Assembly: GCA_001769835.1 (NCBI GenBank)
Contig: MEPR01000077.1
Location: 1-42,666, forward strand
Direction of reading: 5' to 3'
Length of the DNA: 42,666 bases
From: Bdellovibrionales bacterium GWB1_55_8
Lineage (GTDB): Bacteria; Bdellovibrionota; UBA1018
Position numbers and translations under genes: made by a program. Below the pieces are notes generated by a model. That model did not search any database, was not told where the DNA came from, and saw only the letters and a list, made by a program, of their open reading frames with translations. This document shows, piece after piece, positions 4,355 through 33,975 of this stretch (within the stretch, counting starts at the first letter, position 1; each line of letters opens with the position of its first letter).

Positions 4355-5308
4355 TCAGGTTTTCAGTACGGGGCTGAGTTCAGTATCTTCGGAGGGCTCT
4401 TTTTGAAGCGCCAGGAGAACCCCTCCGAAAATGAGAAGGCTCGAAACAGCCGTTCGAACTGTCACCGCTTCTCCAAACCAGGACCAGGCCAGGGCGGCCG
4501 CCACAATCGGCTGGAGATAGATGAAGATCGCCACTGAGGAGGCCTTCGCATGAGCAAGGGCCCAGAAATTCAGGAAATAGGTAAGAAGAGTCGCCCCCAC
4601 GATGCCAAAGACCATGCAACCGACAAGAAGAGGAGTGAGCGTCGGCAATGTGAAATGCATCCAGTCGGGAAGAGCCAGGGCGGTCAGACCGACGCTGCCG
4701 TACGCGAACATCCAGGCGGTCGTCCAGATTCTGTCATGGCGCTCCAGGAATGTTTTTCCATAAGCGAGAAAAAATCCGTAGCTGACGCAGTTCAGGATGG
4801 TGAGCAGGTCCCCCAGGAATGTCTGGTCAGAAAATGAGAAATTTTCCACCTTTCTGAGGACCAGGACGCCACCGAAAGCGAAAACAAATCCGACGACCCG
4901 TTTCCATGTAGCCGCTTCCTGTCCCCGGAGCGTCACGATCAAAAGCGTGACGACCGGTATCAGCGTATTCAGGATCGCGCTATTGGTCGATGAGGTCAGG
5001 TGCAACCCTACCAGAAAAGAAGCCTGATTGATCACCGTTCCCAGAAGGGCGAAAATGACGAGAGGCAGGAAGAATGCTCTTCCCCGGGGCATTCGGGTAC
5101 CTGCAAACCCGGCGATCATGAACATGAGGATTGTCGAAATGATGATTCGTGCGCTGGCCCAGAGCAGGGGAGGGAACGCTTCCACGACCACTTTGGAAAT
5201 GACGTAGTTCAACCCGAACAGCACCTGGACAGTGATGAGCGCGAGGAGAACGAGGATGGGCGCCGGTTTTTTCATCAGAGGCTTCAGTTTACCTGAATCA
5301 TGGTACAT
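4355..5308 (-). CDS. DMT superfamily (EamA) transporter
   Basis: 317 residues with about ten hydrophobic helices in two repeated EamA halves. The first half opens with LITVQVLFGLNYVISKVVVE and includes GLHLTSSTNSAILNTLIPVVT. The second includes ASSVAIFIYLQPIVAAALAW, the conserved proline-containing helix of EamA domain 2. Members export or import small metabolites such as amino acids and sugars; the substrate is unknown. Neither the ATG at 5308 nor the alternative at 5275 has a clear Shine-Dalgarno. The longer form adds 11 hydrophilic residues. Only 15 to 48 bases separate it from the divergent barrel gene. Confidence 0.9.
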   Translation of the reverse strand: MYHDSGKLKPLMKKPAPILVLLALITVQVLFGLNYVISKVVVEAFPPLLWASARIIISTILMFMIAGFAGTRMPRGRAFFLPLVIFALLGTVINQASFLVGLHLTSSTNSAILNTLIPVVTLLIVTLRGQEAATWKRVVGFVFAFGGVLVLRKVENFSFSDQTFLGDLLTILNCVSYGFFLAYGKTFLERHDRIWTTAWMFAYGSVGLTALALPDWMHFTLPTLTPLLVGCMVFGIVGATLLTYFLNFWALAHAKASSVAIFIYLQPIVAAALAWSWFGEAVTVRTAVSSLLIFGGVLLALQKEPSEDTELSPVLKT

Positions 5309-32093: not shown

Positions 32094-33338
32094 TTAACCG
32101 GCGGCTCGAAGGCGTTTCGGTTTCCGCGGCACCGCAGTGAGGAAACGTCCATGCTGCTTGAGTTCCTCGAGCCGACAGCTCCACGCCAGCCGGCCGTTAT
32201 GAACTGTCATATCCGGGCAGCCGTCACACATGCTGATTCTTCCATCCGGAAGCACGTCTGACGGTTGAATGACCGTGAAGGTTTGCATGTAGTGCGGTTC
32301 AATGATTGAGAACGGGTTTTTCAGGAGTTCCCAAGCCTGCTCGCTCGCGATTCGCCGCATGCCTCTGTCAAACGGTGCCATCAGGAGCGCGCTGACACGT
32401 CCCAGGGATAAAAACCGAGGCTCAGCATACGCCAGCCATTTTTTTTGAAGCAGTCGGTGGCCCTCCTGGACCGTTTCCATAAACGTCGGTGTGACATAGC
32501 CGAAAGTGCGCTTGCGGCTGGCGATCCGGGTCCCCAGCAGCCATTTGGTACTGGTCGCGTCTTCGGTCCCGTTCAGGTAGGCTGAGGGCTCAAAAGCGGG
32601 ATCAGCTTCGCGGATCTTTGCGACGGCTTCAGGCGTCCGGACTGCGTGTTTCCCTCCCCAGGTTGCCACCTTTTGATAAGTAACGGGGACTTCCACCTTT
32701 TCGCCACCGGCATAAAAGTCGTATTCGCCAAACAGTCCCGGCTCTCGATAAAGAATGAATACGACCGTATGCACGATGTCGGGGTGTTTCATTGCCCAGC
32801 GGACTACGTCGGGAATCTGGCTCAAAGTATCGCTCGTTACGGTCTGATTGAAGGAGCAAGTGAGTCCGCCTTCAGCAGCGAGCATTTCCGCAAAGCGTTG
32901 CCGCAAAAGGTTCAGATCTTTTTCAGTGCTTGCTATGAAGTTCTTGCGCTGCTGAGAGGTGTCGACATGGAACGTGAAACCGAATGCGCCGGCCGCTTTC
33001 AGCTCTTTCAGTAATTTGGGAGTCAGTCGGACGCCATTCGTGTTGATGATCGGCTTCCATCCTTTTTTTCGTACCATTTTAACGATATCGCAGATTCGCG
33101 GGTGAACCAGGGGGTCGCCTCCTGCGATACTGATGCAGTCTGATGCTCTTTCTCTTTTGAATACGCGTAGATCAGCTGCTATCTCGTCTAGTGTTTTATG
33201 GCCGCCCCTTTTCTGATCCCGATAACAGCCACGGCAAGAAAGATTGCAACGTGTGGTCACCTCCAGCCAGGAAATCGCGTTGTCCGAGAGCGACCACGGG
33301 AGTCGATAATATCGTTGCGGTGCTAATATGTTTGTCAT
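32094..33338 (-). CDS. Radical SAM enzyme of unknown substrate
   Basis: 414 residues from the ATG at 33338 (GAGG upstream); a longer in-frame reading would run through the repeat region and the regulator start. The cluster motif is CNLSCRGC (Cys31, Cys35, Cys38), followed by the GGDPLVHP strand and IINTNGVRLTPKLLKELKAAG of the partial TIM barrel. The C-terminal third has a second Cys group (MCDGCPD and SCRLEEL) that could bind an auxiliary cluster, as in SPASM/Twitch-like enzymes, though the pattern is short. No precursor-peptide gene was found beside it. It is divergent from the PAS-LuxR regulator and ends facing the M48 gene. Confidence 0.88.
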   Translation of the reverse strand: MTNILAPQRYYRLPWSLSDNAISWLEVTTRCNLSCRGCYRDQKRGGHKTLDEIAADLRVFKRERASDCISIAGGDPLVHPRICDIVKMVRKKGWKPIINTNGVRLTPKLLKELKAAGAFGFTFHVDTSQQRKNFIASTEKDLNLLRQRFAEMLAAEGGLTCSFNQTVTSDTLSQIPDVVRWAMKHPDIVHTVVFILYREPGLFGEYDFYAGGEKVEVPVTYQKVATWGGKHAVRTPEAVAKIREADPAFEPSAYLNGTEDATSTKWLLGTRIASRKRTFGYVTPTFMETVQEGHRLLQKKWLAYAEPRFLSLGRVSALLMAPFDRGMRRIASEQAWELLKNPFSIIEPHYMQTFTVIQPSDVLPDGRISMCDGCPDMTVHNGRLAWSCRLEELKQHGRFLTAVPRKPKRLRAAG

Positions 33339-33404
33339 AGAAAAGCCCTCGGACGTGGAGGCGGAAAAACCTCCTGGTGCGTCGCCGTCTTTGCAATTGA
33401 GACG

Positions 33405-33448
33405 CCAGATTCTGACCAGATTCTGACCAGATTCTGAATAGATGCTGA
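33405..33448. repeat. Four 11-bp direct repeats between the radical SAM and regulator genes
   Basis: Three perfect copies of CCAGATTCTGA (33405-33415, 33416-33426, 33427-33437) are followed by a fourth with 8 of 11 bases kept (33438-33448). The 11-base period is close to one DNA turn, so bound proteins would line up on one face. The array ends 11 bases before the regulator's start at 33460. Confidence 0.85.
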
Positions 33449-33459
33449 AAGGAAGTGTC

Positions 33460-33975
33460 ATGCAGGAGATCATGGGCCGGCTTTTTGGGCCGGACGGAAT
33501 GGGACTTTGTGTCAAAAACAGTGACAAGAAGGTTTTGTTTCAGAATGAGGTCTGCAAAGGAATCTGCGGCAACCAGAACTCACAAACGTGTGAAATAGGC
33601 TGCATGAGTCTTTATATCTCGGACAAGAGCTGCCCAGCCCGGTCCGAAGGCGTGCAGGTTTTTACGGATCAACTGATGCACGATCGCTACATGGATGTCG
33701 TCGTTCTGAACAATGCCAGGGAGCTCGTGACGATCCTGTACCCCGTGGAAACCAAGCACCAGCGAGAGCTTCAGTTTCTTCAGGACAAGGGGCTCTCGAA
33801 GCGTGAAACAGAAATCGCTGAGATGGTTGTTCGGGGAATGACGAATTCGGACATCGTCAAGAAACTTGCGATCTCAAAAGCCACGTTGAAGACGCATCTG
33901 AACAACGTCTACAAAAAACTGCCTGCCGACAGCCGCGGACGATTCCGGCGCCGCATGATGATGTCGGGTACCTGA
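33460..33975 (+). CDS. LuxR-type regulator with Cys-rich PAS-like sensor domain
   Basis: 171 residues from the ATG at 33460 (AAAGGAAG upstream). The ATG at 33442 falls inside the direct repeats and has no ribosome site. The N-terminal ~105 residues look PAS-like (GLCVKNSDKKVLFQNEVCKG, then VVVLNNARELVTILYPV) and carry six Cys, four of them as C-x3-C-x7-C-x3-C. That spacing suits an iron-sulfur cluster, metal or redox sensor. The C-terminal ~65 residues are a LuxR/FixJ helix-turn-helix (LSKRETEIAEMVVRGMTNSDIVKKL, then SKATLKTHLNNVYKKL). There is no receiver domain. It probably regulates itself and the divergent radical SAM gene. A terminator follows. Confidence 0.87.
   Translation: MQEIMGRLFGPDGMGLCVKNSDKKVLFQNEVCKGICGNQNSQTCEIGCMSLYISDKSCPARSEGVQVFTDQLMHDRYMDVVVLNNARELVTILYPVETKHQRELQFLQDKGLSKRETEIAEMVVRGMTNSDIVKKLAISKATLKTHLNNVYKKLPADSRGRFRRRMMMSGT

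Follow-up and report, generated by a model that had tools for sequence, protein, structure and literature searches.

An 11-bp tandem repeat between divergent radical SAM and PAS-LuxR genes of a Bdellovibrionales bacterium: a probable recent, lineage-specific expansion

Introduction

Direct repeats with a register of 11 bp are recognized by bacterial regulators of several kinds. ComA, a member of the GerE family, binds TTGCGG-5nt-TTGCGG, an 11-bp direct repeat in which 5 nt is the optimal spacing (PMC4797271). The Pho box consists of two 11-bp direct repeats (PMC3978041), and in SARP boxes the direct repeats recur at 11 or 22 bp, with the -10 element 8 bp away (PMC10936776). Tandem repeats in promoter regions are also a source of phase variation, as at hifA/hifB, nadA and porA (PMC3899988), and slipped-strand mispairing generates the intergenic minisatellites of bacteria. 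Here we describe a short array of 11-bp units in a 42,666-nucleotide stretch of DNA from Bdellovibrionales bacterium GWB1_55_8 (contig MEPR01000077.1; hereafter the window, from genome G000) and weigh which of these systems it most resembles.

Results

A perfect tandem array in a 121-bp divergent gap

The array lies between a radical SAM gene and a gene for a LuxR-type regulator that are transcribed divergently, with a tyrosine phenol-lyase (TPL) gene beyond the regulator. The features of this region are as follows.

32094..33338, minus strand: 414-aa radical SAM protein, start at 33338, transcribed away from the LuxR gene
33339..33459, no strand: intergenic region of the divergent radical SAM and LuxR genes, 121 bp, with the array inside
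33405..33437, plus strand: three perfect tandem copies of CCAGATTCTGA (sequence reading, TRF)
33426..33441, plus strand: segment ACCAGATTCTGAATAG, comprising the last perfect copy, which aligns with ACCAGA--CTGAATAG of the relative G006 (local alignment, one-copy form)
33438..33448, plus strand: degenerate copy no. 4, ATAGATGCTGA, matching CCAGATTCTGA at 8/11 positions (sequence reading, TRF)
33449..33455, plus strand: AAGGAAG, putative ribosome-binding site for the LuxR gene, immediately 3' of the array (by reading)
33460..33975, plus strand: regulator with PAS-like and GerE (LuxR-type) domains, 171 aa, with near-invariant C17, C36, C44 and C48
34049..35446, minus strand: TPL, convergent with the LuxR gene; neighbourhood kept in G006 and G003

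A sequence-only reading of this DNA had described three perfect copies plus a degenerate one at exact 11-base spacing in a divergent promoter. Both parts of this description were confirmed: inspection of the sequence and TRF agree on the array (interval 33405-33448, period 11, 4.0 copies, 90% matches, score 67), with the perfect copies at 33405-33415, 33416-33426 and 33427-33437, and the radical SAM gene starts at 33338 on the minus strand and the GerE gene at 33460. The dyad CAGA-T-TCTG occurs in every perfect unit, and TCTG-AC-CAGA at every unit junction. The longest exact self-match at lag 11 is 22 bases. In 40 order-2 Markov randomizations of the window, the longest run at any period from 5 to 60 was 15 bases (mean 10.8), and the array is therefore beyond chance. 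It is an intergenic minisatellite-like repeat of near-identical head-to-tail units above chance expectation. Isolated units show no enrichment in the window (19 matches when at most 2 mismatches are allowed, versus 14.4 expected), and neither sigma-70-like promoters nor terminators were detected between 33250 and 33520 at the threshold of the tool.

The radical SAM start at 33338 is backed by G006, in which the homologous N-terminus begins at the same point. A longer radical SAM frame running through the array, although open in G000 as in G006, was rejected: the upstream extensions in the two genomes are not clearly alike, and for this reason we take the array as intergenic.

One unit in the closest comparable locus, and no array elsewhere

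Among the 58 genomes of the class that were searched, three others carry a LuxR homologue with 50% identity or more. G006 retains the radical SAM gene (65% identity), the LuxR gene (60%) and TPL (82%), and is the sole relative seen in which both divergent genes are intact. Its gap, of 70 bp, holds one shorter unit, ACCAGA--CTGAATAG, and no array. The local alignment with the window comprises 18 columns, 15 of them identical, with a 2-nt gap, and the G006 gap scored highest against the one-copy form of the window sequence (37.9, as against 34.1 for two copies and 31.8 for three). The match score was reached by 0.6% of 5000 shuffles (p about 0.006, from simple shuffling and uncorrected for the choice of segment); correspondence between the G006 unit and the window unit is suggestive, not strong. 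Array copy number thus differs in a relative with an orthologous site, a difference between genera and not at strain level.

In G003 the LuxR gene (57%) is kept, as is TPL (82%), which lies about 2 kb further on. At a contig end of G027 the radical SAM and LuxR genes again form a divergent pair, in which the LuxR frame lacks a recognizable start. The gaps of both G003 and G027 are without a lag-11 repeat. Beside the intact LuxR gene of G003, on the minus strand at L005:1351-1395, we also observed MTLWLSLQCFYQLPW, 15 residues that resemble the radical SAM N-terminus. The similarity (8/15 identical) has an E value of 1.5 when taken alone, and the argument is the expected position of the segment; this suggests that the radical SAM gene was lost in G003 while the regulator and TPL were kept.

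These relatives are from other genera, and identities for the two divergent genes are 51-65%. The sequence-only reading had named lack of the repeat in close relatives with both genes as a refutation of its proposal; G006, with one shorter unit and no array, goes against the proposal, but a relative from another genus is not final on the point. At greater distance, the array was present in none of the other 368 genomes of a phylum sample of 369 that included the window's own, where all further matches were unit pairs with 3 mismatches. Regions upstream of radical SAM orthologues from other families contained no array (best unit match 8/11), and no further array copies were found in viral contigs. 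The simplest history from these comparisons would be a common ancestor of G000 and G006 with one unit, followed by expansion in the lineage of the window.

Repeats elsewhere in the genome

A search of the window's own genome with the 22-base unit pair at up to 3 mismatches returned no second site, and the upstream and promoter region of TPL had no near-unit better than 8/11. A survey of tandem repeats covered 46% of the genome with crude gene calling, in which the array itself was counted as coding. In this sampled part the array ranks with the most regular of those built from short units, and there are further short intergenic tandem repeats, such as an 11-bp unit in 3.4 copies at L156:1946-1982. 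Period 11 is common among these intergenic repeats, partly through an effect of the score threshold, and is not used as evidence. The top-scoring of such tandem repeats in the sampled part, at L156:4012-4128 on contig C55, has a 27-bp unit in 4.3 copies with 95% matches and lies mostly outside called ORFs.

The regulator and tyrosine phenol-lyase

The N-terminal domain of the regulator has no Pfam PAS match, and no solved structures match the protein by sequence outside the HTH region. Its AlphaFold model (pLDDT 92.7) has a PAS topology followed by an HTH, and the best PDB matches in Foldseek are EL222 and VqmA, in which a PAS-type domain is likewise joined to the same HTH; TM-scores are low, at about 0.3-0.5, probably because of a differing domain arrangement. 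On the basis of this topology and these matches we accept the label PAS-LuxR, and the earlier identification of the protein therefore holds at the level of the model.

Within the PAS-like domain, C17, C36 and C44 are present in 36/36 homologues and C48 in 35/36 (window 33460-33975; L004-L013, L018, L019 and L081-L104). This conservation suggests a sensor of metal, Fe-S or thiol-redox type, and the four near-invariant cysteines are a better lead than the array itself.

The TPL assignment is above the NCBIfam equivalog cut-off (774.6 bits). TPL lies near this regulator in three genomes, and on account of this proximity tyrosine/phenol metabolism may be under the regulator's control. A search of the literature for a link between LuxR, PAS and tyrosine phenol-lyase found nothing.

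Palindromes upstream of other LuxR homologues

A different element precedes the orthologues of genus g89, which belongs to another family. The palindrome ATGAY-N4-RTCAT lies upstream of the LuxR gene in 19/20 of these orthologues (L081-L093, L095-L099, L103 and L104), mostly at about 70 bp. The form common to the 19 is ATGAYNNNNRTCAT, and many loci also carry CTCACATTT further upstream. We regard ATGAYNNNNRTCAT as a strong candidate for a regulatory element of the g89 orthologues. Its topology, an inverted repeat with a 4-nt spacer, is that of the canonical ComA site, and FNR/CRP-type proteins bind similar palindromes. In its recognition region, SKATLKTHLNNVYKKL, the window's protein hardly differs from the g89 proteins. 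Two uses of the palindrome were tried and discarded: transferred to the window gap, its best match was 6/10, as in shuffles, and its genome-wide site counts, 12, 21 and 19 for the three genomes counted, were near the figure of about 14 expected under equal base frequencies and defined no regulon.

Two Thiotrichaceae homologues, in turn, share AATCAACCYAGGGGGTTGATTTT upstream of the LuxR gene (L018 at about 4937-4959 and L019 at about 2868-2890). This inverted repeat could be a terminator or an operator.

Discussion

We conclude that the array is probably a recent, lineage-specific 11-bp minisatellite that arose by slipped-strand duplication of one pre-existing unit. That three copies agree at all 11 positions points to recent duplication, and they match even where a protein would need no contacts. 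The ancestral single unit would already have been located near the promoter or in the leader of the PAS-LuxR gene. Slippage may have been helped by an old imperfect neighbour, the present degenerate fourth copy, and by the dyad CAGA-T-TCTG, and the two added units, which amount to 22 bp or about two helical turns, would have been tolerated because they disturb no reading frame. Duplications of 11 bp inside genes shift the frame and are removed, and hence survivors sit between genes. The assertion of the sequence-only reading that slippage alone would not explain the position is thus invalid, since a 121-bp gap is where changes of 11 bp survive with no frame shift. The effect of the array on expression is possibly nil. 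Points on the other side are the high regularity of the array within the sampled part of the genome, its place in a regulatory gap and a period of 11 that fits helical phasing; the relatives compared are also of other genera, which leaves room for a new function in the window's lineage.

The main functional alternative, which we consider unlikely, is that the units are tandem operators of the adjacent PAS-LuxR protein, whose dimers on one face of the helix would shut off or switch both divergent promoters. The array does lie between divergent genes with a regulator adjoining, its 11-bp register is about one helical turn, each unit contains a CAGA-N-TCTG dyad, and ComA, from the same HTH family, binds 11-bp-spaced direct repeats (PMC4797271). 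A protein on the array would more naturally repress than activate the LuxR gene, because the array ends at the ribosome-binding site. An operator of this kind is difficult to reconcile with the lack of the array upstream of the orthologues in G006, G003 and G027, with a 2-nt deletion in G006 that alters the spacing inside the unit when ComA-type sites are strict about spacing, and with the lack of a second site at TPL or elsewhere in the genome. Moreover, the g89 orthologues, with a near-identical recognition region, share ATGAY-N4-RTCAT rather than the unit, and that palindrome has no good match in the window gap. If ATGAY-N4-RTCAT is autoregulatory, the near identity of the recognition regions makes the window units unlikely as the autoregulatory site. 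The repeat of the sequence-only reading is borne out in register and place, while its role as an operator array for cooperative binding of the LuxR protein is no more than plausible. A more elaborate and still more doubtful version is a lineage-specific multi-site operator derived by duplication of a half-conserved site, through which the four-cysteine PAS-LuxR protein would repress both itself and the radical SAM gene with a cooperativity set by copy number. If the regulator did bind the array, this would show cleanly how duplication of a single site gives rise to an operator array, and copy number would be directly testable as a dial of cooperativity.

It is improbable, too, that the number of repeats differs from cell to cell or strain to strain and, by altering spacing, tunes or switches the two promoters. 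Such promoter-repeat phase variation would be consistent with the perfect tandem identity and with an intergenic site between divergent genes, as in hifA/hifB (PMC3899988), but low instability is expected of only three perfect 11-mer copies, the cases compared use very short units (TA, TAAA, poly-G), and the comparison includes one genome of the species. It appears very unlikely that the array is bound by some other regulator, of the winged-helix PhoB/OmpR or SARP type, with a preference for 11-bp direct repeats: the Pho box (PMC3978041) and the SARP box (PMC10936776) share the register, but regulators of this type often act at several promoters, the genome has the unit pair only once when up to 3 mismatches are allowed, and the gap yielded no sigma-70-like promoter. 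We give least credence to an action in RNA, by which a leader hairpin would control translation of the LuxR or the radical SAM gene. Pairing of CAGA with UCUG is possible within and between units, but predicted folding of both strands was no better than that of shuffles (z -0.43, -0.77 and -1.18) and there was no Rfam match.

As a recent intergenic duplication the array is ordinary, and the regulator next to it may outweigh it in interest, as a compact protein of PAS-GerE type whose four cysteines are near-invariant and whose gene lies near TPL in three genomes.

Set beside the described systems, the array has the same 11-bp register as Pho and SARP boxes, but with no second genomic copy and no known link to a regulator of those kinds. 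With the phase-variable promoter repeats of hifA/hifB, nadA and porA it shares tandem repeats between genes, which for hifA/hifB are also divergent, whereas those loci have very short units and proven variation in copy number (PMC3899988). The likeness to ComA operators lies in exact 11-bp direct-repeat spacing near a promoter and in a DNA-binding domain of the same family encoded next door (PMC4797271). ComA sites, however, consist of two TTGCGG hexamers, normally beside an inverted repeat, and occur at many promoters (PMC4797271), while the array has three to four nearly identical 11-mers in one place only. Bacterial intergenic minisatellites formed by slipped-strand mispairing differ from the array in copy number, which is only 3+1 here, and share with it perfect short head-to-tail units, restriction to one lineage and a degenerate copy at the edge.
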